A stretch of 64,000 nt of DNA from Armatimonadota bacterium (lineage in GTDB: Bacteria > Armatimonadota > Fimbriimonadia > Fimbriimonadales > Fimbriimonadaceae): assembly GCA_018268255.1 (NCBI GenBank), contig JAFDWX010000001.1, forward strand, positions 372,001 through 436,000, in the 5' to 3' direction. This document shows positions 12,858 through 52,704 of this stretch, piece by piece (position 1 is the first letter of the stretch; every line of letters starts with the position of its first letter). The translations under genes were made by a program, and so were the position numbers. Under the pieces are notes generated by a model that did not search any database, was not told the DNA's origin, and saw only the letters and a list, made by a program, of their open reading frames with translations.

Positions 12858-14348
12858 TCAGTCTCCAAACATGTCGAAGTTATCGCTGAGGATAACGTAG
12901 TCAAAGATCGTGATGGCTCCATCTCCATCGAGGTCCGCATCCTTGGGTGCAGATCCGTTGGCGCCGATGGCATTCCAATCAGCATCGTCCGAAGTTCGGT
13001 CGAAGTATTCGCTGAGGACGACATAGTCGAAGACCGTGACCATGTTGTCGTTGTCGATGTCCCCATTGATCAGGTCAAACGTTAGCCCTGAGACACCTCC
13101 GGGGCCAATGTTGACTGGGGCAGAGGCTCTGCGCAGCCAGTGTGATCCTTTCACAAAAACTTGGTAGTTCCCGACAAAGCCACCACTAGGAATAGTGAAA
13201 TTTCCAGCCGCGTCGAGGGTTGCAGTCCCTACAGACTCGGTGCCAACTTCAACGCTCACAACCTGCCCGGCGACATCACCCAAATACTCATTGAGGTTGA
13301 CGGTCCCCGATATCTGAGGAGTGGCACGGAACGACTGGAGAGGAGTGCCTCCATTGACATATCCAAAGCCTGAGATCACGCCGGTGTCGTTGATCCCGCC
13401 CATCCGGAAAATCACCCAGTTCTTTGCAGCAAGGTCAGCAGTCAGGTTAGAAAGTGGCTTGCCGAATGGTTTGAGGAATGCTTGGCTGGTGCCCGATGCA
13501 TTGGTGCTGATCCCAACGACATCCCCCTTGCTGTTGGCCCAGTAGATTTCTGAGTACTGGCCTCCGAGGGTTCCCAGATCAGACACTTGACCCGAAGCCG
13601 ACCAGGCAACAGCTCTAGGCGTGGTTTCTGTGGTGGTCCAGCACTTGCCAAACACTGTGCCATCGTTTAGGACCCGAGTTGCTTTGCCCTGCGAATATCC
13701 CGCTAGCAGCGGAAGCGAGATCCAGGTCCCACCGGAGTGCTTGTACGGGAGGATGGCTGCGCCCACGGTTGCGTGGCCCACAATCAGCAAGCCCGATTCT
13801 GAAATATCATTTGCGACCGAATTCGTGGCTCCGACGGGATTGCCGAGGAGCGTCAATGCAGCATCTCCGATTCGCCACTTGAAGGCCTCTGTTAACGTAC
13901 CTCCCACGATATCATTGAGGTCGTTGATGCCCCAAGCATGAGCGGCACCACCAGGAAGCGTGTGGCCAATGTTCGCGGTATCCCACCACAGTGGGAATTG
14001 GTGATCGTCTGTCCAACCGACTCCATCAAATGTGTAGCCGCACTCGATCCCAGCCGAATTGATTCCGGTTGCGTAGTTAAATGCGTTGCCGCGAGCTTCA
14101 TACGGTGCTGGGAGTGTTTGGTAGCTCGGAGTATCGGAAATCCAGCGAACCGCCGTGTCCCTCCAGTTCCCTCCGGAACTAGAGAATCCGCCTACGACGC
14201 CCGCATTGTTGATTCCGCCTTCACATTTGGAGGAGTTGTCTTGCCAAGTGCCGGGCTTTAGAAGCTCAAACTTAAATTCAGCCAAGGAGCCAGCCGCAAC
14301 GCCGACCACGATGAATGCCGCACAAATCTTCAGGCTGGTTCGATTCAC
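12858..14348 (-). CDS. Secreted HAF-repeat protein with C-terminal HWL/dockerin-like module
   Basis: A 496-residue exported protein starting at a GTG (14348) with AGGAG seven bases upstream. Residues 1-25 are a signal peptide. Residues 30-340 carry HAF-type repeats (GINNAGVVGGF, GINDLNDIVGG, GINDTGVISGF), a beta-propeller-like secreted repeat. Residues 347-496 are a module shared with the proteins at 15600 and 24148: a beta domain with VFVKGSHWLRR, then LINGDIDNDNMVTVFDYVVL and ADLDGDGAITIFDYVIL, two calcium-loop dockerin-like repeats ending the protein at FGD. The role of the module is unknown but its place at three unrelated C-termini suggests sorting or attachment. It is downstream on the same strand of the other surface genes. 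Confidence 0.82.
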   Translation of the reverse strand: MNRTSLKICAAFIVVGVAAGSLAEFKFELLKPGTWQDNSSKCEGGINNAGVVGGFSSSGGNWRDTAVRWISDTPSYQTLPAPYEARGNAFNYATGINSAGIECGYTFDGVGWTDDHQFPLWWDTANIGHTLPGGAAHAWGINDLNDIVGGTLTEAFKWRIGDAALTLLGNPVGATNSVANDISESGLLIVGHATVGAAILPYKHSGGTWISLPLLAGYSQGKATRVLNDGTVFGKCWTTTETTPRAVAWSASGQVSDLGTLGGQYSEIYWANSKGDVVGISTNASGTSQAFLKPFGKPLSNLTADLAAKNWVIFRMGGINDTGVISGFGYVNGGTPLQSFRATPQISGTVNLNEYLGDVAGQVVSVEVGTESVGTATLDAAGNFTIPSGGFVGNYQVFVKGSHWLRRASAPVNIGPGGVSGLTFDLINGDIDNDNMVTVFDYVVLSEYFDRTSDDADWNAIGANGSAPKDADLDGDGAITIFDYVILSDNFDMFGD

Positions 14349-15599: not shown

Positions 15600-18500
15600 C
15601 TATTCGTCTCCGCGAAGGTCAAAGTGATCGCTGAGGATCAAATAATCAAATACCGTCACAGTGCCATCCCCATCCAAATCGGCATCTGGGTCAAACCCAG
15701 TGTCGCCTACACTGCGATCAAAGGAGTTGGACAGCCGGAGGTAGTCGAAGACAGAAACTTCGTTGTCTCCATCAACGTCGCCATTGATTAAGTTCACTGT
15801 AAGGCCTTCAACACTCGATTCGGTTACGGCCATAAGGACCTTTTTCTTGAGCCAATGGGGAGCCTTAACCAGGCATTCCACTGTTCCAAAGAGACCACAA
15901 ACAGCCTTGAAAGATCCGTCCGCGTTAAGAGTCGCATACTCCGTGTCCAGAATCTCGTCCGTGCCTGGTACGCGATATTCAATAGTGATGGGCGTTCCTG
16001 CAACTTTGCTGGCGAGATAGTCTCCCAAATGGACGAGACCATTAAACTGCCGGAATGTTTGAGGAGTCTTCAGGAAGACCTCATCTACTTTTCCACCAGA
16101 AACTTCGAGTCGGCTGTATCCCGTGACGGTTAGCGAGGAAGATGGTTCTGCCAGAATTGCAACCGCATCCCCCGAATACGTCGAGGTCCCGACTTTGATC
16201 GCGGTTGCTGTACTCCAATTAAACCAAAAACATGGCTTGACAGGGGGATCCAGCACGGGTCCTCCTTTCTCGCAACTATCTGGGATTTCCAGGGCGCTTA
16301 CCGCAGATGGGGTCTGCCCAGGTAGATCAGCAACCACTATTCCCTGCCGGAGGACTTTTACTCTCACTGTTGTTGAGCCAACCGATGTGTAGTCGGCCAG
16401 AAAAGCATGGGTGCCGTTGACCTTTCTTAGAATGATGGAGCCCACATTGGAATCGGCAACTCCGTTTTTCGTAGCAAAGGCTCGGAACTGGAGCTCTGCT
16501 CCTTCTGCTAAGCCATTGGGAACATCAAAATCCGCACGAAAGCCCTCTTCAGAGGGGAGGTTGACAGCTACTCCATCGTCTCCGCTCGTCACGAGATTGT
16601 TAACGTACAGTCCATCGGCAGTTCTTGAAATCACCGCTCCGCCTAATACGGAGAGGCTTTGCCCTGCCTCGATATTAGCTCGAACGTCCGAAATGGTTAG
16701 AGTTGCAACCCCTGCCGTGTCCACTTCTACAGAGGAAACATTCTCCCTAGTCGCACTCGGACTATCGGCTGTAATGAGAATCTGAGCCACGTTGTTTACG
16801 GGCGTCCCACCCACCGCAACTGTGGTCGGAGTGATCGTTAGTAATCGATCTTCTCTCAGAGAATGACATTCCTCGCCGTACTTCTGCAGAATCAGCGACG
16901 TGGGACTGGGCACTTTCACGAGATCTGTCGGAGGTCGGACTTGGTCGAACAAAAGCGTCCCACTAGAGTTATAGAGCTTTACTCGAACACTTGCAGGGTT
17001 GATATTCGAGAAATCAGCTGTTATTGCGGCTGATGACTCGCCCCCAGACAGCATGACTTTGCCAATCGCGACTCCTTCACTTCCGTTCACTCGGCCCACT
17101 GAGGAGAAAGTCACCCAGATGTCAGGATCACTGAAATCTGGCGAGTTCGCAAAGGTGAAAACGCCACCGGTCGAATACCCAAAATCACAAGCAACCTTTC
17201 CATATCCGGTGATGGTAGCGGTCAGATAGCCATTGGAATCAAAATCGATGTCGGTTGTATCGTTGGCGTCCCAAGTAAATCCCTTCCACCAAGGGCAACA
17301 ATTCCACAACATCAATCGTGCATAGTCGACACTCGTGAAATTCCTAGTTGCCATGTCCAAGCGGCCAGTCGCATCGATTTCGCTCAGAATGGCGGAATTC
17401 AAACTAACTGACACCGTTCGAGGACCAGCGGTGCTCCATGTCGTCGAAGTAAGGGCTCCGAGTCCAGCACTATAGGCAAACGAGTTGTTGCTTTTAAGTG
17501 CCAAGAACAACTGGTCCGGGTTCGAAGACGCCCCCACGGAGGGATTTGCTCGCATCACACTAAGGAACTGACCATTGAAGTTCTTGCATGGACCTTTCGG
17601 AAGGTTTTGGAAAGAGGCCGCGAAATATTTATCCACGGGAAATGCGTCGAAGAGAACTCTGTTTGCAGCTGGAATTAGGGTTGCCAGCTGCGGACTGATC
17701 GGAGTTCCATCGGGACCAAAAAGCCAATGATCTCGTTTCCCAATCTGATAAGTTCTTGGGCAATCCCTAAGTACCGCAAGGTCGTCCACCCAGCTCGAAC
17801 CGCCCAAATCCCCTCCATACACATTGACCGCATGAATATTGAGGAGGCTAGAGCCTAAGATCGGCCGATACCGCACATTGGCGAGCATCTGCCCATTGTA
17901 AAAAACCTGCATGCGGTCCTTGCTCAAGTCGATGAACGCGCATAGGTTGACCCATTGGTTTGTAACTGTGGGTATCCCCGCCGAGATAAAGTCTCCAGTA
18001 CTGGTGCCTTGGGCACCGACGGGGAAGAACTTAACATTGGTTGTATTCGCTCCGACTTGCATGCTGAAAGCACCAGGTCCAGCAGTGTGAGGTTTGTTAA
18101 GGAGCATCAAATACGAGCGCTGAAGTGGGTCTGAATTGGCTGGTACACACCACCAAGAGCTAAAAACGAACTTTCCGTTGCTGTAGCACTTGAAATCCCG
18201 CATCAGGTCCGTTGTGGGATACATAAAGAGCCCCCGGGAGGGTGAGCAGAACTTGTCCTGAATGAGGCCAGCTTCATTAGCCAGACCTTCTGCCAAATAC
18301 CATCCTCGAGTTCCGTGAGGACTGGAGTTGAATGGGTATGCCCAGTCTGGAAATGATTCGCACCAGCCGCGTACGGGAGGGCACCCGAACGTGTGGTCAT
18401 CAAAGTTAACGGCGGCCTGCCCACTAAGGTCTTGGAATTCAACCTTGGTGATGCACCGGGGGTCCTGGTAGCCCAAGAATTTGGAGGTGGTGCCCACTGC

Positions 18501-24147: not shown

Positions 24148-26643
24148 TCAGGAATCTCCAACTCGGTCGAAGTTGTTGGCAAGAATCAAGTAGTCGAACA
24201 CGGTTACCTGTTCGTCACGATCCAGATCTGCCCGCTCGTTCCAGCTGTCGCCGCCCCACACGGTATCAAAGGCATCGCTCAGCTCCAGGTAGTCGAATAC
24301 CGTTACCGCATCGTCCTCATCCACATCTCCGTTAATGAGCGAGAAGTTGGCCGTGGTGACTGCACTCGTGGTCACGTTGTATTGTCCCTTCTGCAGCCAA
24401 TGGCTCACCTTGGCAAAAATGTCTGCGTTTCCGGACAAATTGGTGGTGACGGTATAGGTGCCGTCCGGCTGAAGGATTGTGGGGTGAACCTCCGTCCTTG
24501 CCGCGTTTCCGGTGGGCCGCAGAGTAATCATCGCCGCGTGTCCGTAGGAGGATCCGCCAAGGTCGTTCAAAGTGATATGACCGATCACGGTCTTCATCGT
24601 CGCGCCACCCACAAACGGCATATCGATGGTTCGAACCAGACCGGCACCGTTGGTATAGGTGCCCCGGACCCAGTAGGTGGTTCCTGCCGTGAGCGTGATC
24701 CCGCTCAGCGTGGCGATGTCGCCATCGATTGCGATCTCTTTGGCAGCCATAACATTTGTGCCGCCTACCGCGGTCCCGATTTGGAATACGGCCTTATCCA
24801 AGCCGGTTTCCGTGTCGTAAGCCCAGTGGCGAACCTTGACCTGGCTAGCCGTTGGTGTTTCCGCCAGTTGGAATCGGCCCACCGTCGGCGGAGTGATATC
24901 CGAGGGATAGCCGCCGATGAAAAAGTCCACACCTGGCGCGTTGCACCCTTCGCGAATCACAACCGTGCGTTTCTTCTCGTTGAACCCAGTCTTCGCTGTG
25001 ATGTCATAAGTCCCTGGCGTAAGCGCTTGGAATCGATACCAACCCACTGAGTTGGAGTTCGTGGAGATCCCGTTCCCGGATGCGCCGACTTTCTTGGCGG
25101 TGACGACGGCGTTCGCCACGGGCGTTCCGAAATAGATGAGACCTTCGACAGACCCCGCGACGGCAACCCGCGCGTTCTGGTCCAGAACGGTCGCGGCCAT
25201 ATCCAAATCGCCGAAGCCTTTCACGGTATTCCACGGAACGGTATTCGAGGGAGCCTCCTGGTAAGCGCCCCTCTCCAGAGCCTGCATCGTCCGTACATTG
25301 CTCCAACCGCCGGCTCTGGCTAGGTTGTTCTTGCCCATATACAGGCCGGCCGCACCAGCCACGTGGGGCGATGCCATGGATGTTCCATAAAGGTAGGTGT
25401 AGTCCTGAGTGATCGGTGGGTAGTAGGCAAGGTAGTCGTTCAGCCAAACATGATAAGTCGGCATGGTCGACCAGGAGAACATCAGCAGATAGTTGCCCCA
25501 AATGTCGTTGACGATGTCGCCGCCCGGAGCCGCGATATCGAGGTAATTGGCTGTTGCTGCGTAGTTCGCCGCGGGTAGGAATGCACCGGTCGAGGCTGTG
25601 ACGCCCACAACACCGCTGCACGCGGCGGGATAGAACGGTGGAAGATTGTTCGGGCTGTCACTTTCGCCGCTCGCAGCGATGAGGACGCATCCTTTCTGAA
25701 AGGCGTACCGACACGCGTCTTGCATCGCCAGCGAAAAATCGGTGCTGCCAAAGCTCATATTGATGACGTCCGCGCCGTGGTCGGCGGCATAGATCATCGC
25801 TTGGGCTGCATCACTGTCCAATCCGCTGCCGTCGGCTTCGATAATCCGAAGTTCCATGCCCTGGCTGTTGTAACCTGTACCGATGACTCCGTGGCCCGTG
25901 TAGCTGCCGTTGTTGGCTGCTGCGAAGGCGATACCCGAGACGTGGGTACCGTGGCCGTTTTCATCCCATGGAAGTTCGCCCACGAGCACCTGATTCAAAG
26001 AAATGTGGCGAGAGCGTGAGTAATCGAACTGCCCTCCGAGCGACTTGTCTCCACCCGATCCGCCGGAGTTTACGAAGTCGGGGTGGTTTAAGTCACAGCC
26101 CGAATCAATAACGGCTATTGTCGGAGCATCCGAGGGTTTCGTGGCGTTGGTGTAGTACTTGTTGGGAAAGATCGACCATGCCGGAAAGGCATTGGATTGA
26201 TCAAGACCCCACAGCGTGTTGAATCGCTCGAGATTTTCCTCATCCAGCTGCAGGTACACCTCCTCGTTCATTTCCAAGACTCCGTAATCGGCGTCGTTAG
26301 GGTTAGCCAGCAGAGCTCGAATTTTGTAGACGGGCTCGGCATATGCAACTCCCGGCTGCGCCATCAACGTTCTTGCCGCCGCGCGCGGATCGACAGATTT
26401 GCTGATACTCCACGTTGTCCAGCCTGTTCGTCCTAGAGTGCCCGTTTGCGTTGCGCCGCCCAAAACCTGAGACACACGAGCGGCGGTTCGACTGGGTTTT
26501 CCGGGCACTCCAGGAAGCATCTTGACCTTGAGCATGCCTGGCACAACCTCCGATTTCACATCAGGAACGTGTACTTTGGGAGGAGCCGCATGAACGGCGG
26601 CAAAAAGCGCAAGGGCAGCGGCAAGAGCAAGCGATCTGGACAT
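24148..26643 (-). CDS. Secreted subtilisin-like protease (S8) with HWL/dockerin-like C-terminus
   Basis: An 831-residue exported protease from ATG 26643 (MSRSLALAAALALFAAVHAA signal; GGGGAG upstream). Longer readings to 26817 are not needed. Residues 30-110 are an inhibitor-like propeptide. The S8 triad is Asp180 (IAVIDSGCD), His231 (NGHGTHVSG) and Ser422 (GTSMASPHVAG). After about residue 510 come carboxypeptidase-regulatory-like beta repeats (YRFQALTPGTYDITAKTG). Residues 687-831 are the module shared with two surface proteins: IFAKVSHWLQKG, then LINGDVDEDDAVTVFDYLEL and ADLDRDEQVTVFDYLIL. It may be held at the cell surface by this module. It is divergent from pyrD. Confidence 0.93.
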   Translation of the reverse strand: MSRSLALAAALALFAAVHAAPPKVHVPDVKSEVVPGMLKVKMLPGVPGKPSRTAARVSQVLGGATQTGTLGRTGWTTWSISKSVDPRAAARTLMAQPGVAYAEPVYKIRALLANPNDADYGVLEMNEEVYLQLDEENLERFNTLWGLDQSNAFPAWSIFPNKYYTNATKPSDAPTIAVIDSGCDLNHPDFVNSGGSGGDKSLGGQFDYSRSRHISLNQVLVGELPWDENGHGTHVSGIAFAAANNGSYTGHGVIGTGYNSQGMELRIIEADGSGLDSDAAQAMIYAADHGADVINMSFGSTDFSLAMQDACRYAFQKGCVLIAASGESDSPNNLPPFYPAACSGVVGVTASTGAFLPAANYAATANYLDIAAPGGDIVNDIWGNYLLMFSWSTMPTYHVWLNDYLAYYPPITQDYTYLYGTSMASPHVAGAAGLYMGKNNLARAGGWSNVRTMQALERGAYQEAPSNTVPWNTVKGFGDLDMAATVLDQNARVAVAGSVEGLIYFGTPVANAVVTAKKVGASGNGISTNSNSVGWYRFQALTPGTYDITAKTGFNEKKRTVVIREGCNAPGVDFFIGGYPSDITPPTVGRFQLAETPTASQVKVRHWAYDTETGLDKAVFQIGTAVGGTNVMAAKEIAIDGDIATLSGITLTAGTTYWVRGTYTNGAGLVRTIDMPFVGGATMKTVIGHITLNDLGGSSYGHAAMITLRPTGNAARTEVHPTILQPDGTYTVTTNLSGNADIFAKVSHWLQKGQYNVTTSAVTTANFSLINGDVDEDDAVTVFDYLELSDAFDTVWGGDSWNERADLDRDEQVTVFDYLILANNFDRVGDS

Positions 26644-45667: not shown

Positions 45668-46597
45668 TTGGTACGGATCAAACCGCGCTCCCTCCGCCCG
45701 GGAGATACGATTGCAGTCGTTTCTCCCGCCTCGGCGATCGATGATGATCGCCTGGGGCGCGGTCTTGCCGTCATGGAAAAGGGCGGCTACATCTTCAAGC
45801 TATTTCCCCATACTCGTGACGCCGACGACTACTTGGCGGGCAGCGATGCTGATCGTGCCGCAGACCTGATGGCTGCGTTCGATGATCCCGAATGCGCCGC
45901 GGTGATGTGCTCCAGAGGCGGCTACGGATGTTCGCGCTTGTTTCCGTTTATCGATCTCGACCGAATGGCCGCCAGCGGCAAGATGCTGTGTGGATTTTCG
46001 GACATCACCGTGCTCCACTTGGCGCTCAACCGCAGAGGGCTGGTGACCATGCATACACCCATGCCCATCACCCTCAGCTACGAGCGCGAACCGTGGGTCC
46101 ACGATTCCTTCTTCCGTCTGCTCCAGGGCGACCCCACCATTGCCCCAGAAGTTCCCCGGGCCGAAACCATGGTGGATGGAACAGGCGAGGGTGAACTGAC
46201 GGGCGGATGCCTTTGCCTGCTTTGCGATTCCATCGGCACGCCGGATGCGCTCGATTGTCGAGGCAAAATCCTGGTTATCGAGGACGTCGACGAGAAACCC
46301 CACCGCGTGGACGCCATGCTCACGCATCTCATCAACACGGGGATTATCCAGGAGGCGGCCGGGATTGTGGTTGGGGAAATGACTCGCACCGACGACCTGA
46401 GCGACCCAACTATGGGTGGCAAATCCTGGCGATGGATCTTTGAGGATCGGTTGGGCAAACTCGGAATTCCGACGGTCGTCAATTTTCCATTTGGCCACAT
46501 GAAAACGATGCTGAGCATTCCTTTGGGGGTTCAGGCCCGTCTTAATGCCGGGGAAGGTACGCTAACGTACCTCGAATCACCATGCGCAGAAGCCTAG
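45668..46597 (+). CDS. LD-carboxypeptidase (peptidase S66)
   Basis: A 309-residue enzyme that cleaves the L,D bond of the tetrapeptide in murein recycling. It starts at TTG (45668), with LRPGDTIAVVSPASAID as first strand. The catalytic serine lies in CGFSDITVLHLAL after AAVMCSRGGYGCSRLFPFID; the Glu is in ILVIEDVDEKPHRVDAMLTH and the His in NFPFGHMKTMLSIPLG. No signal peptide, so it is cytosolic. Its end overlaps the next gene by 16 bases. Confidence 0.92.
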   Translation: MVRIKPRSLRPGDTIAVVSPASAIDDDRLGRGLAVMEKGGYIFKLFPHTRDADDYLAGSDADRAADLMAAFDDPECAAVMCSRGGYGCSRLFPFIDLDRMAASGKMLCGFSDITVLHLALNRRGLVTMHTPMPITLSYEREPWVHDSFFRLLQGDPTIAPEVPRAETMVDGTGEGELTGGCLCLLCDSIGTPDALDCRGKILVIEDVDEKPHRVDAMLTHLINTGIIQEAAGIVVGEMTRTDDLSDPTMGGKSWRWIFEDRLGKLGIPTVVNFPFGHMKTMLSIPLGVQARLNAGEGTLTYLESPCAEA

Positions 46598-48000
46598 AAT
46601 TTCTATTTGCGACCGCAGCTTTCGGATTGGTCCCGATTGCCGCGCAAGGCCAGGTTTGGGAGAAGTTCCTGATGCCGGGTCTCACCTATCGAATGGAGAT
46701 CGACCCCACCGGTCCCCGACTCATCCATATCCTTCGATATAGCCCCGGTGCACCGGGTTTGAGCATGGTTCCTGAGGTGAGCGGACACAAGATCTTTGGC
46801 TTGCCAGAAAACCAGGGTCGCGAAGAGCTCTCGGCGATTGTCAAACGTGCTGGTGCGATCGGAGGCGTAAACGCCGACTTCTTTCCGTTTACCGCAGACC
46901 CCTTGGGTGCCATGGTGCGCGATGGCGAGTTGATCAGCCGACCCGACCCGAGACGTGCGGTTGTGGGCTGGGGAACCGGCGGCTCGACTGTCGGCAAGCT
47001 CAACTGGAAAGCCTCTATCACCATGGGCGATGGCCCAGAAATGCCGCTTTCCGGTCTCAACGAGGAATGCCCGGATAACGGCGTCGTTGTGTTTACGGAT
47101 GCGGCTGCCCAAGCCATTTCCAAGCCTCCGTGCACCTACGCGGTGCTTCAGCTGCTTGATGGAAAGTGGACCCCCACCACAGTTCGAGATGGCAACATCA
47201 CCTCTATTTCCGAAGACGTCGCCAGTGTGGAAGTTCCGGCAACGGGAGCCGTGATAGTTGCCCGAGGTACCGCCGCCACAAAATTGAAGGCAGCTCAGCT
47301 TGGCGGAAAGATCCACATCTCGATGACAACCGGGGGCTTGGATTTTGGCAAGTTTCAGCAGGTGATTGGCGGTGGTCCGTTCCTGTTGAACAAAGGGAAG
47401 CAAATTATCGATTCCGAAGCTCAGGGGTTCGGGAGTAAGTTTGCGCAGAATCGGCATCCTCGCACGGCGGTCGGCATCACCGAGCACGGTGAGGTGCTGT
47501 TGGCGGTGGTCGATGGCCGATCTCCGATTTCGGTGGGATGCTCGCTCCTTGAGCTCAGCGATTTGATGATCCGCATGGGCTGCACCGACGCCATCAACCT
47601 GGATGGAGGCGGGAGTTCGACGTTTGATCTGTTTGGGCTCACCCTGAACCGACCCAGCGACGGCGCGGAGAGGAAAATTAGCAACGCGCTCCTGCTGATG
47701 GGGCCAGCGCTGCAGGCAAGCACGGGTGAATTCTCGATTCAGGGGGCAAAAACCGTCGATGCGGCGAGTCCCGCGGTTCTCAAAGTCGTAGATTCAAAGG
47801 GAACCGTGATCAAGAACTCAGAAGTGCTGTGGGCCGCCCAAGGCCAAGCTTGGATCGACCAAGGAGGCACCTTGCGTGGCATCAATGCTGGCGAGGTGAC
47901 CGTTTCTGCCTTGGTGAAGGGGCAGGTCATCCGAGTGAAGATCGCTGTCACAGGGCCGCCGTTGCCGGATTCCACCGGTGCGGGCGAAGACAAAGGCTAG
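46582..48000 (+). CDS. Exported phosphodiester glycosidase-family (NAGPA/DUF2233) protein
   Basis: A 472-residue exported protein (signal MRRSLEFLFATAAFGLVPIA). Residues 40-375 form a NAGPA/DUF2233-type domain: IGGVNADFFPFTADPLGAMV, NRHPRTAVGITEHGEVLLAV, VDGRSPISVGCSLLEL and the hallmark GCTDAINLDGGGSSTF. The family removes GlcNAc from phosphodiesters or acts on peptidoglycan and teichoic-type polymers. Residues 380-472 are an Ig-like tail. Its last 30 codons are duplicated 0.9 kb downstream at 48799-48899, with four of five differences being synonymous. It follows an LD-carboxypeptidase, so wall turnover is a plausible context. Confidence 0.9.
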   Translation: MRRSLEFLFATAAFGLVPIAAQGQVWEKFLMPGLTYRMEIDPTGPRLIHILRYSPGAPGLSMVPEVSGHKIFGLPENQGREELSAIVKRAGAIGGVNADFFPFTADPLGAMVRDGELISRPDPRRAVVGWGTGGSTVGKLNWKASITMGDGPEMPLSGLNEECPDNGVVVFTDAAAQAISKPPCTYAVLQLLDGKWTPTTVRDGNITSISEDVASVEVPATGAVIVARGTAATKLKAAQLGGKIHISMTTGGLDFGKFQQVIGGGPFLLNKGKQIIDSEAQGFGSKFAQNRHPRTAVGITEHGEVLLAVVDGRSPISVGCSLLELSDLMIRMGCTDAINLDGGGSSTFDLFGLTLNRPSDGAERKISNALLLMGPALQASTGEFSIQGAKTVDAASPAVLKVVDSKGTVIKNSEVLWAAQGQAWIDQGGTLRGINAGEVTVSALVKGQVIRVKIAVTGPPLPDSTGAGEDKG

Positions 48001-48013
48001 CTTGTCAGCTTTC
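47913..48013 (+). repeat. 101-bp direct repeat, copy 1 (3' end of the DUF2233 gene)
   Basis: Covers the last codons and stop of the DUF2233 gene plus 13 bases beyond. It is 96 of 101 identical to 48799-48899. The two copies bracket the membrane-protein gene at 47978-48739. Confidence 0.95.
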
Positions 48014-48739
48014 AAGCGTCAACGGACCCTGGAATCTCTGCGATTGGTGTTCGCTTGTGCTCTCGTATCTGCCACAGCGGTCGCGATTGCTACTTACGTT
48101 TCTTCGCCGGATCCCGGAACATGGTTTGATCCTCAGCTGTTAAGGGAAGGTTGGCTTCTTTGGCATACCTCGGTTTCTGTGGGATTCGAAGCTATCGTAG
48201 GTGCGTGTGCTTTATCTGCAGCCACGCTCATCGAAGTGGTGATGCAGCGGAGGACTCCAATAAAGGTGTGGCAGATCATACCGGCCGCTCTGCTCGGAGG
48301 TGGCCTGTCTCTTGTGAGTCAAATAGTGGTGGATTTAGTCTTTGGCCTATTCAACCACTTTCTTGGGGCGGCGGCAGGTAGCTATTCAAGCCTTATCGTC
48401 TGGCCGATAACCAGGAGCCTTGGCGCACTGAGTATCGTAGGTGTTCTCTGTCGAAAAGAGTGGCCGACGCTAAACGAAGTTACGTATCTTGTACCCAAAA
48501 TCGTTGGGCTTGACGTTCTATTGGGAATGACCTGGTGGATACCACTCGTAGTTTATTCGCTGTTCCTAATGCCTCAAACTCCGAACCTTCCTGAGGAAGT
48601 AATGAGGTGGGCAAGGTGGAGCAACATTCTTGAAAACTTCATATCGACAACCGCTTTGCTCCTCCTGCTAGCTAACCTCTCAGCTATGAGGTACGAGAAC
48701 TCAAAATTGCACCGAGAATCGGGCTTTGGTGGAAGGTGA
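47978..48739 (+). CDS. Polytopic membrane protein of unknown function
   Basis: Up to 253 residues from GTG 47978; TTG at 48002, just after the previous stop, is an alternative. Five or six membrane segments are evident (LVFACALVSATAVAIATYV, VGFEAIVGACALSAATLIEV, IIPAALLGGGLSLVSQIVVD, LDVLLGMTWWIPLVVYSLFL, ISTTALLLLLANLSA). No family is recognised. It sits between two copies of a 101-bp repeat and its first codons are the duplicated sequence itself, so it appears to be an inserted gene fused to the end of the DUF2233 gene. Its base composition is more AT-rich than its neighbours, consistent with transfer. Confidence 0.65.
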   Translation: MRAKTKASLSAFKRQRTLESLRLVFACALVSATAVAIATYVSSPDPGTWFDPQLLREGWLLWHTSVSVGFEAIVGACALSAATLIEVVMQRRTPIKVWQIIPAALLGGGLSLVSQIVVDLVFGLFNHFLGAAAGSYSSLIVWPITRSLGALSIVGVLCRKEWPTLNEVTYLVPKIVGLDVLLGMTWWIPLVVYSLFLMPQTPNLPEEVMRWARWSNILENFISTTALLLLLANLSAMRYENSKLHRESGFGGR

Positions 48740-48798
48740 GGCCGGAATAGGCGCCGGGGACGCTCAACGGGGCTGAGGGTTCGTCGTCAAGTCAAGAG

Positions 48799-48899
48799 GG
48801 TGAAAGGGCAGGTCAACCGAGTGAAGATCGCTGTCACTGGTCCGCCGTTGCCGGATTCCACAGGTGCGGGCGAAGACAAAGGCTAGCTTGTCAGCTTTC
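48799..48899 (+). repeat. 101-bp direct repeat, copy 2 (orphan 3' end of a DUF2233 gene)
   Basis: Non-coding copy of the end of the gene at 46582, including the stop codon. Five mismatches, four of them at synonymous third positions, which implies both copies once diverged as protein-coding sequence. The surrounding 48740-49007 has no other gene. Confidence 0.95.
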
Positions 48900-49007
48900 T
48901 GCCGCACAAGCAACCTCTTGTGTGAGCATTGAGCCATTCCCGTTGTATGATGGGTAAGGCAGTCACGTGGAGAGGAGTATCGAAACTCTTGTGTGCGGAG
49001 GGATTTG

Positions 49008-49304
49008 ATGATGAGGCTAGCATTGTTCAGTGTTGCGCCGCTTAGTCATGACGATCTGGTCGGAATAGCCGTACGAACCATGTTTGTTGTGCTAGTCATC
49101 GCTTGGTCCTTGAAGCGAAGGAAGCTAGTTGTTGCGAAAGTAGTGACCTTTGTGTTTCTTATCATGGTTGCCCTGGCTATTTTTGTTTGGACCCCTTTTT
49201 CATCCGGAATTATGGTAGCCGCAGTGTACGGAGTAGCACAGATGTTAAGGAACAATAGTCAAGATACACCTACTCCGGGCCACCAGTCCGAGGCAAAAAA
49301 GTAG
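49008..49304 (+). CDS. Small membrane protein of unknown function
   Basis: A 98-residue protein starting at ATG 49008 (GGAGG six bases upstream; a GTG at 48993 is the longer reading). Two or three membrane segments (LVGIAVRTMFVVLVIAW; VVTFVFLIMVALAIFVWTPF; GIMVAAVYGVAQML) and a polar tail NNSQDTPTPGHQSEAKK. Its size and topology resemble small immunity or accessory proteins, but nothing proves it. It follows the orphan 101-bp repeat. Confidence 0.6.
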   Translation: MMRLALFSVAPLSHDDLVGIAVRTMFVVLVIAWSLKRRKLVVAKVVTFVFLIMVALAIFVWTPFSSGIMVAAVYGVAQMLRNNSQDTPTPGHQSEAKK

Positions 49305-49647
49305 CAGAAACTCCTGGTCGAAAAATCCTGAACTCTGGTACCCAAACCCCGAATTGAGATGCATGTTCGAGTTCGGAGTCAGTATGTGGTTCGTGAGAGG
49401 CGGCATCTCTTCGTGCCAACGGTTATGGCGATAGCGTGATGACAACGACATCCGGTGGATCAAGTTTCCCGGCGGGCGCATCCCCGAATACGATTTTTGG
49501 GGTGGAATTCGCAATGGCAGCCTTCAAGCCCGACTCGGTACTGCGCCAACTTGGGCCACAAGTGAATTGACGATTCTGGAAGCATCTGCACGCGCGCTAT
49601 GCTATATTCGACTTCAGTGACATGCTCTACATTTTCAGCACTGACGG
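49305..49647. other. Gene-poor stretch, 343 bp, with a coding remnant
   Basis: No intact gene. From about 49437 a short open stretch reads TIFGVEFAMAAFKPDSVLRQ in one frame before a stop; it contains the first copy of a 68-bp repeat (49496-49563) found again at 50513-50580. It looks like the decayed end of a lost gene. Confidence 0.5.
49496..49563 (+). repeat. 68-bp diverged direct repeat, copy 1
   Basis: Aligns without gaps to 50513-50580 with about 84 percent identity. The core GTGGAATTCGCAATGGCAG is identical in both. One copy lies before each of two orphan genes (49648 and 50624). Confidence 0.85.
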
Positions 49648-50349
49648 ATGGCAAGTGTGAGTAGCGACGTCGTTCTAGTTCCGTCCAGTAAGCAAAGCCT
49701 CGCCATCACACCTGAGATGGTGCCACAAGCATATTCTTGGCTAGATGCAATCTATCCGAACATTCCGGAAATCGAATATTACTACACGTATTTTTCAACC
49801 ATTGAGGCGCAAGAACTTGCAGTCGATTCGTTCTTCGTGGATCGACTCCCGGTTACGATAAAAAGATTTTGGGATACTGTTAGCCCTTTTGTAAATCTGT
49901 TGCCATATGGCTCCAGTGAACTTGATTCGGAATATTGGACGGATATTATCAACACACGGGACCCAGAAGATTTCATTGAATCATTTACCTTCACCGAAGC
50001 AGACCTTTTTTGCATGCTTTCAGGAGGGTTCTTACCAACTTGGAACATGCTTGCTGCTTGCTTAGTAGGGAGCTGTGGCTTGACCAATATCTTAACGGAA
50101 CAAGACTTGCCGCCTAATTTGCTTGAAACTTTGTGCCACACCTCAGGAGAATTGACATCCAGCTTGGGCCCGACTGCACATGCCAAAGGTGTTCCCGATG
50201 ATTACTTGATATTTGGAGGAGTGGAAGATTTCCTAACTGCACCCGTCGAAAGGTCCGCTCATTTTCGGTGGTTCGGCAGTTGGCCACATAATAGTGAAAT
50301 TCGGACTTCAAATCTCAGGTTTCGATGTGCCTATCGTTTTGCAGACTAG
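49648..50349 (+). CDS. Orphan protein of unknown function
   Basis: A 233-residue cytosolic-looking, acidic protein without signal or membrane segment. Features: SWLDAIYPNIPEIEYYYTYF, RFWDTVSPFVNLLPYGSSEL, FTEADLFCMLSGGFLPTWNM. The composition (many Trp, Phe, Tyr, Asp, Glu) resembles immunity or antitoxin-type proteins, but no family is recognised. It stands alone between the two 68-bp repeats in an AT-richer patch. Function unknown. Confidence 0.65.
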   Translation: MASVSSDVVLVPSSKQSLAITPEMVPQAYSWLDAIYPNIPEIEYYYTYFSTIEAQELAVDSFFVDRLPVTIKRFWDTVSPFVNLLPYGSSELDSEYWTDIINTRDPEDFIESFTFTEADLFCMLSGGFLPTWNMLAACLVGSCGLTNILTEQDLPPNLLETLCHTSGELTSSLGPTAHAKGVPDDYLIFGGVEDFLTAPVERSAHFRWFGSWPHNSEIRTSNLRFRCAYRFAD

Positions 50350-50512
50350 CCAACCCCCCAGCCCGTCGGGCGTTGGCTGATGTGTTCCGCGAAAAAACGT
50401 TGAGCAGAAATCGGGGTTTCGTCCCTGGTGTATGATTAGAGTGGCGGTAACGAGTTGACGCTGACCGATAGTAGTTTCACTTTCTCGACGAGCGTTCTGC
50501 TCAAGTACTGTG

Positions 50513-50580
50513 TTTGGAGTGGAATTCGCAATGGCAGGCTCCAAGGTCGAACCGGTGCTGCGCCGACCTCGGCCACAAGT
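50513..50580 (+). repeat. 68-bp diverged direct repeat, copy 2
   Basis: Second copy of the element at 49496-49563. It lies within the 274-bp gap 50350-50623, which holds no other gene; one frame reads TVFGVEFAMAGSKVEPVLRR through the repeat to a TAG at 50600-50602, shortly before the next gene. Confidence 0.85.
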
Positions 50581-50623
50581 AGAACGAGTCCGGAGCGCTT
50601 AGTGGATAGTTAGGGAGGCCTTG

Positions 50624-50926
50624 GTGATTCGCTTTCTTCAGGACAATCGAGCGACTTTGTTGTACTGCATACTATTGGCGATTATTCCCATTATTCCGAT
50701 CTCTGTTTCGTTAGTTGTCATTGGGCTTGTGGCAATATGGTGGCGTTTTCAAGCGTTCTTCACTACCTATCTAGGTGCTCTACTTGGAATACTACTTATT
50801 ATCGTATTCGCAATTAGTGGCTGGCTTCTTTGGAGAATGCCTTTAGTTTATTGGTCGGGCATTGTGTTTTTGGGCATGTTAGACAAACTTGGCTCCATAA
50901 AGCGGGGGTCGGAAGCCGATTCCTAA
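50624..50926 (+). CDS. Small membrane protein of unknown function
   Basis: A 100-residue protein from GTG 50624 (AGGGAGG five bases upstream; TTG at 50621 is too close to it). Three membrane segments: ATLLYCILLAIIPIIPISVS, LVVIGLVAIWWRFQAFFTTY and LGALLGILLIIVFAISGWLL, then LVYWSGIVFLGMLDKL. No family recognised. It is the second orphan preceded by the 68-bp repeat. A GC hairpin follows its stop. Confidence 0.62.
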   Translation: MIRFLQDNRATLLYCILLAIIPIIPISVSLVVIGLVAIWWRFQAFFTTYLGALLGILLIIVFAISGWLLWRMPLVYWSGIVFLGMLDKLGSIKRGSEADS

Positions 50927-50961
50927 CCTCATCGGCGACCCCTCCCGAGGGGGGGATGAGG
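50927..50961. terminator. GC-rich hairpin after the small membrane protein
   Basis: Arms CCTCATC (50927-50933) and GATGAGG (50955-50961) with an inner CCCCTCCcgaGGGGG pairing. Immediately after the stop, but without a T-run. Related CCCCTCC/GGAGGGG hairpins occur at 51361-51376 and 51428-51444. The rest of 50927-51158 has no convincing gene. Confidence 0.45.
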
Positions 50962-51158
50962 CTTGGACATGATTGCAAGCGCCTCTATCGGAATCCGTGG
51001 TCGTCAGAGAAAACTGGGTGGCAGGATGATCGGAGTGGCGGAGATCCCACTCAAAAAGAGTCAATCAGCGCAGCATTCCCGCCTAGCGTTCCGTCGGATT
51101 TGGGGGAGCTGATCCGGGTAGGTGGTGTTCGCACCGGGTTGATGGAGTAAGGTTAGGT

Positions 51159-51314
51159 ATGGACCGTCCATCGAAGAAAGAAATCAAAGAAGCTATCGAG
51201 AAGCTCAAAGCCAAACCGAACGCGCCCCATTCCGGCCCACCGGTCGGAGGCAACGAGGCAGGCTCGCTCTCGGCCAAGAAGTCCAGCAAGCGCATCCGCA
51301 AGCAGGGCATTTAG
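51159..51314 (+). CDS. Small basic protein, unknown
   Basis: A 51-residue open frame with TAAGG upstream: starts MDRPSKKEIKEAIEKLKAKP and ends AKKSSKRIRKQGI. The first half is a charged amphipathic helix, and the second half is Gly/Pro then Lys/Arg-rich, a pattern compatible with nucleic-acid binding. Codon use is regular and the frame is plausible, but it could be chance. It lies in the repeat-rich patch. Confidence 0.4.
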   Translation: MDRPSKKEIKEAIEKLKAKPNAPHSGPPVGGNEAGSLSAKKSSKRIRKQGI

Positions 51315-51369
51315 AGCGGTTGCTTTGCCTCGTGATTGGGATCCGAGGCCATGACAATTCCCCCGCTTC

Positions 51370-51487
51370 GGAGGGGAATTCCGTAAGCCGCGTTTGCAGA
51401 TAGCGGACCACCCCGGCCTATCGGCCACCCCTCCGTGGGAGGGGAATGTCGTAACCTTCGTTTGTTGAAAATGGACCGCCCCAGCCT
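51370..51487 (+). repeat. Two copies of a 50-bp repeat, period 68 bp, with GC hairpins
   Basis: 51370-51419 and 51438-51487 share the frame GGAGGGGAAT..CGTAA..CGTTTG..GGACC.CCCC.GCCT at roughly three-quarters identity. Each copy is preceded by a CCCC-loop-GGAGGGG hairpin. The stretch 51315-51567 has no gene apart from these. Confidence 0.75.
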
Positions 51488-51567
51488 CTGCAAAATTCCT
51501 ATCTCTGAAAGGAGTTACGACATACTCCGGTGCTGGCTATCTGGCATCTGGACGGTAATCTAAATGG

Positions 51568-52170
51568 ATGGTCCTTGCTGCAGCATTGTGGGTGTTACTC
51601 GGAACAGATCACGAGTTGAACTTGCCATTTTTGCAGCGCCTCGTCAGTTCGAAAATCATCTATTCAAAGGAAAAATCAGGCGATGGACATTGGGGCGAAT
51701 TCTGGCTCCGCAAGAATGGGACCTGGGTCGGTCGTAGCAATGGTTATGAGCTGGAATATGTAGGAGGAGGTTCCCATCCAAAGGCCAGAAAGCGCGGAAC
51801 TGCCAAGTGGAACAAACTCCTACAGCAACCCTGCAAGCGCGGTACGGAACTCGGCAGAGTTCTCGATTGGTACAAGGAACCGGCGAGCATTAGTCGAGAT
51901 GGTGAAGGAATGCCCGACGACAATGGATTCATTACTTGGGGTGGGCGCCGTGTGCGGACGATTTGCGCGTGGGGAATTCACGGTGAACCTATGCAAGGTG
52001 CAACGACCATCATTCTTGAAAAAGGCTCGGGTCGGCCCTACGTCTTTATCAGTGAAGACTTTGGTATCTTCACCGATGATCCGACTGAGAGCCACCCGAC
52101 AAAAGAAGTCACCTACTTCTCACAGATCCAAATTAATGCAAAGTGGCCAAAGTGGGCGGCTAACTTCTGA
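51568..52170 (+). CDS. Exported or anchored protein of unknown function
   Basis: A 200-residue protein starting with a short hydrophobic segment (MVLAAALWVLLGTDHEL). The rest is beta-rich: GHWGEFWLRKNGTWVGRSNG, GFITWGGRRVRTICAWGIHG, RPYVFISEDFGIFTDDP. It looks like a small secreted domain with strands containing W-G pairs. No family recognised. It is alone in the patch, with 253 bp before it and 534 bp after it. Confidence 0.6.
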   Translation: MVLAAALWVLLGTDHELNLPFLQRLVSSKIIYSKEKSGDGHWGEFWLRKNGTWVGRSNGYELEYVGGGSHPKARKRGTAKWNKLLQQPCKRGTELGRVLDWYKEPASISRDGEGMPDDNGFITWGGRRVRTICAWGIHGEPMQGATTIILEKGSGRPYVFISEDFGIFTDDPTESHPTKEVTYFSQIQINAKWPKWAANF

Positions 52171-52364
52171 TAGTCGCGCGAGCGGTGCTCGAAGCACGCC
52201 GTTGGCGGTTCACACTCTTGGGATTCGGTTTCAGGGTTGCAAGCGAATGGATTGACCCGCTAGATTCCAAAATTTCGTTCGGAATCACTTCCAGTGGTAG
52301 AATAAAAAGTAAAGGTTTAGTCGGGTAACTATTCTATTTGATGCCGGGAGTTGAGGGATGAGTG

Positions 52365-52532
52365 ACGGATCCCTCAAGATCTGCCGCCCGTCCCTCGATT
52401 TCGATCGCCCGTCCATCGAGACCCGACGCCTATCCCTTGAAACCCAACGCTTATCCCCCAAAACCCGCAACCTATCCCCATAGATCCGCCGTAAATCCCG
52501 CGAAAGCCATCGCTCATCTCAACAATTCCAAG
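52365..52532. repeat. 21-bp tandem array, eight units of exact period
   Basis: The anchor pentamer (ATCCC or a near variant) occurs at 52369, 52390, 52411, 52432, 52453, 52474, 52495 and 52516, always 21 bases apart, while the rest of each unit has diverged. Read on the plus strand the frame gives seven-residue units (ARPSRPD, AYPLKPN, AYPPKPA). The surrounding gap 52171-52704 holds no convincing gene. Confidence 0.92.
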
Positions 52533-52704
52533 ACAAAATTCTAGAATTCCAAAACAAAACCCTTGGGGTCCGGCAAGAGGTCCAAAGCACGCGGTCCGGA
52601 TGCCGAGCACCTTCTCGTACCTTTGAAAAATGCAAATCGAATCGGTTGGGCATCTTCGCGCGGGCCAAGTAAATACCCCGATGCGGCGGGCTAAGTAAAC
52701 TGGC

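Follow-up and report, generated by a model that had tools for sequence, protein, structure and literature searches.

In the lacZ gene of Escherichia coli, end-joined DNA that enters by a single crossover has been observed to leave duplications of the gene end of 109–950 bp (Amarir-Bouhram et al. 2011, PMC3240628). A similar layout is known for the element e14, which enters icd in an integrase-driven reaction, provides a new end for the gene and leaves 163 bp of its 3' part duplicated (PMC6379469). For CDI and RHS loci it has been proposed that new modules displace the old gene ends downstream (PMC4927057).

The window analyzed here, a stretch of 64 000 nt from an Armatimonadota genome, contains a locus that resembles each of these cases in part. 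The 3' end of a NAGPA gene occurs a second time behind a small gene for a putative membrane protein, and this pair of direct repeats is called R1 in the following. As in the lacZ duplications, a short direct repeat of a gene end (101 bp) flanks cargo and no site-specific recombinase is needed; unlike them, where an engineered plasmid was used and the copies are identical, the copies of R1 differ at five sites and the event is known from its sequence only. As in icd, the host gene would have obtained a replacement 3' end while the displaced end persists as a fragment beyond the insert, but the insert is shorter than 1 kb and contains neither an integrase nor phage genes. With displaced (‘orphan’) CdiA-CT/RHS-CT and immunity modules the locus shares the integration at a 3' end, the downstream displacement of the old end in the same orientation and the presence of RHS module relics within the same islet. 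It differs from them in that the NAGPA tail does not encode a toxin domain, the two copies are nearly identical and no toxin was found to accompany the membrane ORF. We regard R1 as a genome scar of an already known type, located in an ordinary accretion islet, and not as a new system.

A gene end repeated on both sides of a membrane ORF

The NAGPA gene (46582–48000, plus strand, 472 aa; PF09992, Pfam E-value 2e-36) encodes a DUF2233-type phosphodiester glycosidase and is preceded, as in relatives, by an LD-carboxypeptidase gene (45668–46597). We observed that its 3' end at 47913–48013 is repeated on the plus strand at 48799–48899 with a spacing of 886 bp. The two stretches of 101 nt align without gaps and are identical at 96 of 101 positions (95%, chance expectation E = 2e-40), so that the ungapped match with five mismatches described in the initial annotation was recovered at exactly the same coordinates. 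In the 3.19-Mb genome (9 contigs) these are the only two copies, neither having any other match. R1 comprises the final 29 codons of the gene including the TAG stop codon and 13 nt beyond it. These 13 non-coding bases are identical between the copies and complete an AAAGG-N5-TTG pattern, whose ribosome-site-like AAAGG begins within the last codons. When we sampled 444 kb around the window and set short-period tandem arrays aside, three pairs of direct repeats less than 5 kb apart were all that we found, namely R1, a second pair described below (R2) and one 503-bp tandem paralog pair. The latter is located at 266209–267480 of contig C1, and its members are 87% identical and 769 bp apart.

The distal copy has a stop-free frame, and no start codon between the stop of the membrane ORF and its own stop would restore a gene; it is therefore a fragment. 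The homology is abrupt at both ends. The distal copy is separated from the membrane ORF by a junction of 59 bp (48740–48798, 66% GC), which is unlike the upstream part of the NAGPA gene, is not matched elsewhere in the family genomes and is a candidate illegitimate join. Both the abrupt ends and the unrelated junction speak for an insertion. So does the layout itself, in which a direct repeat of a gene end flanks cargo and the gene is intact, as a single crossover would leave it.

From this layout we infer, with about even confidence, that R1 arose as the scar of a single insertion, anchored in the NAGPA 3' end. A small DNA, about 0.9 kb long as a circle, would have carried a homologous gene tail and the membrane ORF joined end to end, and one crossover of the RecA type within the gene tail would have brought it in. 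The NAGPA gene would have retained a complete tail, be it incoming, resident or mosaic, and thereby an intact reading frame. The membrane ORF would have landed directly behind the gene, starting at the TTG within the repeat, and the old tail would have been pushed downstream as a fragment that started to decay. After such a crossover the proximal tail would be partly or wholly incoming and the distal one wholly or partly resident, each of them possibly a mosaic. We favour a RecA-type crossover because no integrase was found nearby; the absence of a tyrosine recombinase from the contig is consistent with this model and lends it no positive support.

A possible explanation, which we consider less probable, is a tandem duplication within the genome that included the membrane ORF and either the gene end or the whole gene, followed by a deletion and decay of the fragment. 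Most of the second unit would have been deleted, except for the 29 last codons of the gene and four codons at the start of the membrane ORF. Tandem duplication is common in bacteria, and tandem paralogs occur elsewhere on this contig (the 503-bp pair, 769 bp apart). The repeat also holds the likely Shine–Dalgarno sequence and start codon of the membrane ORF, as expected if tail and ORF were copied together, and the identical 13 non-coding bases fit a within-genome duplication of gene end and ORF start as well as they fit an insertion. However, two events are needed, and nothing recognisable of the membrane ORF or of the remaining gene is left around the distal copy: the sequence before it has no similarity to the upstream part of the gene (its score is equalled in 332 of 500 shuffles), nor has the sequence after it to the membrane ORF (equalled in 494 of 500).

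Differences between the two gene tails

Read in the frame of the gene, the five differences between the proximal and the distal copy are AAG/AAA, ATC/AAC, ACA/ACT, GGG/GGT and ACC/ACA, which are four synonymous third-position changes and one change from Ile to Asn. All codons are as reported in the initial annotation, which took the pattern to mean that both copies diverged while coding. We calculated that a random change in the coding stretch of R1 is synonymous 26–29% of the time. The probability of at least four synonymous changes among five is 0.02–0.03 if one copy simply decayed, and 0.07–0.12 if one copy decayed and the other stayed constrained. The likelihood ratio of divergence of two coding copies over duplication and decay with one copy constrained is 3.4–5.7 for dN/dS values from 0.05 to 0.2. 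The synonymous divergence thus weakly favours two coding copies over duplication with decay: the direction of the earlier claim stands, while its firmness does not, and to state that the pattern means coding divergence was too strong. The four synonymous changes count for the insertion and are less expected after a tandem duplication, against which the likelihood ratio is directed, but five differences are few and the probability of 0.07–0.12 under that alternative weighs against the insertion.

To polarise the amino acid change we aligned the NAGPA tails of 29 relatives. The site is occupied mostly by Ile, Val, Leu or Phe, and by Ile in the closest relative, so that the Asn of the distal copy is derived. 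This is the single change in R1 that can be polarised, the four synonymous ones being not polarisable at this distance. In the same alignment the codons past the Ile/Asn site include a poorly conserved linker, and unchanged amino acids there therefore say less about constraint than it seems. The derived Asn is a point for the insertion and also one for a fragment decaying after tandem duplication. It bears on the proposal that the distal copy is the allele of a related strain, which is not established; the change from Ile to Asn fits decay after displacement.

Divergence at the level of strains, mostly synonymous, is what two coexisting strains would show, and an assembly chimera that fused two strain variants of the gene end would produce it. 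Among named relatives the closest, labelled Chthonomonas sp. UBA2391, was assembled from a metagenome, and the same may hold for the genome of the window. We nevertheless regard a chimera as very improbable, since on its own it would account neither for the 785 bp that separate the copies nor for the unrelated 59-bp junction; in addition, the source contig is 742 kb long and the assembly consists of only 9 contigs.

Repeats at a gene 3' end, here with a possible Ig-like region, are also seen in diversity-generating retroelements. In a decayed element of this kind the proximal copy would be the variable repeat and the distal copy the template repeat, and three of the five changes do fall on template adenines (Fisher P = 0.07). 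The other two lie off adenines, 19 of 22 template adenines are unchanged and the genome contains no reverse transcriptase. The missing reverse transcriptase and the non-adenine changes led us to rule out this class.

The membrane ORF between the copies

The ORF between the repeats (48002–48739, plus strand) has about six hydrophobic segments and encodes 245 aa from the TTG at 48002 or 253 aa from a GTG at 47978. The TTG, five bases behind the AAAGG, is the likely start. We found no match above the cut-off in Pfam, NCBIfam, PADLOC, PHROG or the PDB, and searches of 291 phylum genomes, of plasmids and of viral contigs gave no clear relative either. The only match in the phylum covers 72 residues (E-value 5e-4) and is to a large membrane protein, which by eye looks like a cytochrome-c-maturation (CcmF-type) protein; it probably reflects transmembrane similarity. 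A structure model from the single sequence was of low confidence (mean pLDDT 46).

The insert is atypical in its codon usage, with a codon score of −0.01 bits per codon compared to 0.23–0.34 in the four conserved genes before it. Its GC content is 51%, compared to 59% in the NAGPA gene and 54% in the window upstream, so that the contrast in composition is modest. Codon usage and the missing relatives in the phylum count for the insertion, and the membrane-protein gene is probably foreign. The earlier idea of a foreign cassette that recombined into the 3' end of the gene is in keeping with such a foreign-looking insert, without clear homologues, and it explains the layout; which of the two tails is foreign had been left unclear. 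In view of the displaced RHS module relics in the segment behind it, one may guess, plausibly and no further, that the ORF encodes an immunity-like protein acquired together with material of the displaced-RHS type.

The same layout as in e14/icd, with repeats of a target-gene 3' end at both borders, could also represent attL and attR of a degenerate integrative element (a prophage or e14-like element), whose integrase targets the NAGPA 3' end and whose attP would bring the replacement tail. We consider this unlikely. The repeats enclose only about 0.8 kb, phage genes were not indicated by any PHROG match of weight, and there is no integrase among the ORFs of the islet. None of the four tyrosine recombinases of the genome, the type covered by the genome-wide search, is encoded on the contig. 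An occupied site at the NAGPA 3' end was found in none of the relatives tested.

PADLOC gave no match to defence genes, and a search for structured RNA at 47.5–53 kb gave nothing above the gathering cut-off. Integron cassettes were rejected: no attC core pair (R''/R') is present in 47900–52700 and the repeats fold no better than shuffled sequences.

The NAGPA locus in related genomes

NAGPA genes were found in 60 of the 61 genomes searched, in some of them by weak matches only. Even the nearest genome in this set shares only 53% protein identity in NAGPA, and the genes behind it differ. The pair of S66 (LD-carboxypeptidase) and NAGPA genes is kept in all nine relatives examined, and the genes downstream of it are not conserved. 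A second tail downstream of NAGPA was absent in 29 relatives, for which mostly 1.4–1.5 kb were examined, and likewise in ten loci with 5–10 kb examined; downstream matches to the tail were 15–24 bases long and chance-like. The initial annotation had named relatives that all carry both copies as the observation that would contradict it, and no relative examined carries a second tail. The single tail in relatives and the non-conserved downstream gene are further points for an insertion behind a conserved gene pair.

Decayed RHS fragments beyond the distal tail

Next to the distal tail lies an ORF of 103 aa (48993–49304, plus strand) with two hydrophobic segments and no convincing family. The second direct repeat, R2, is found 0.6 kb beyond R1 (49489–49563 and 50506–50580, 81% identity; 69% in a longer version). 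Its mismatches are distributed 5/5/4 over the three codon positions and show no codon periodicity. R2 consists of two decayed copies, in the same orientation, of a conserved core near the RHS C-terminus. The proximal fragment (49426–49613, plus strand) reads YDFWGGIRNGS and then, frameshifted, RYCANLGHK-stop-IDDSG, compared to YDVWGGVRSGS...RYCANLGHKLDDESG in a family member (tblastn E-value 6e-7). The distal fragment (50442–50600, plus strand; SNRCCADLGHK-stop-NESG) is the partner in the longer, 69% repeat. Between them an ORF of 233 aa (49648–50349, plus strand) matches, with an E-value of 4e-7, a protein with an FGE-sulfatase domain (PF03781), of which it is a diverged relative and whose gene stands directly behind an RHS gene in another family member. 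Such a gene for an FGE-sulfatase-domain protein (L067:1351-2247) overlaps the end of the RHS gene ahead of it by 16 bases; its product may be an unusual partner of RHS or an immunity protein.

Several family members (regions L104–L107, from genomes G014, G091, G033 and G067) contain truncated RHS ORFs in tandem arrays, mostly about 1.0–1.5 kb apart, which have the RYCANLGH core in common and differ in their tails. The same pattern is seen in R2, where core fragments in the same orientation are repeated and each is followed by a small gene. Judged by these resemblances, R2 and the 233-aa ORF look like relics of displaced RHS toxin/immunity modules. No full RHS gene was found upstream of R2 and no further convincing match to the RHS core in the window; the one RHS relative that the genome yielded lies on contig C7. 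No similarity to RHS sequences is seen in R1.

Because the RHS core fragments and the FGE-sulfatase-like ORF lie there, we regard the segment from 48014 to about 52690 as an accretion islet. That the locus is an accretion site, with displaced RHS fragments no more than 2 kb away, is in line with the insertion of the membrane ORF by a single crossover, but as the whole islet is atypical, the atypical insert does not single out the event that produced R1. A more far-reaching reading is that the NAGPA 3' end has served as a landing site more than once, with small gene modules such as membrane ORFs or RHS/immunity-type modules being added there by tail replacement; an ordinary non-toxin gene would then act as the anchor of a displaced-module array. 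We hold this to be highly doubtful. If the insertion took place as proposed, R1 would be a natural case of gene gain without an integrase and without breaking the target gene, in which the old gene end persists as a displaced relic. Together with the decayed RHS fragments and the FGE-like ORF, the neighbourhood would illustrate that accretion can build a lineage-specific islet beside a conserved gene pair; general views are left unchanged by R1.

Two further families of repeats were seen in the window. At about 51405–51453, within the islet, we observed a dispersed repeat of about 46 nt (a ACCCCTCCGTGGGAGGGG hairpin), which is REP-like and recurs at least ten more times in the genome, on several contigs. 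Imperfect repeats of 81 nt are located at 12861–12941, 12987–13067, 15606–15686 and 24154–24234; on the minus strand and by the look of their sequence alone, they read like dockerin-type calcium-binding repeats (DADLDGDGAITIFDYVILSDNF).
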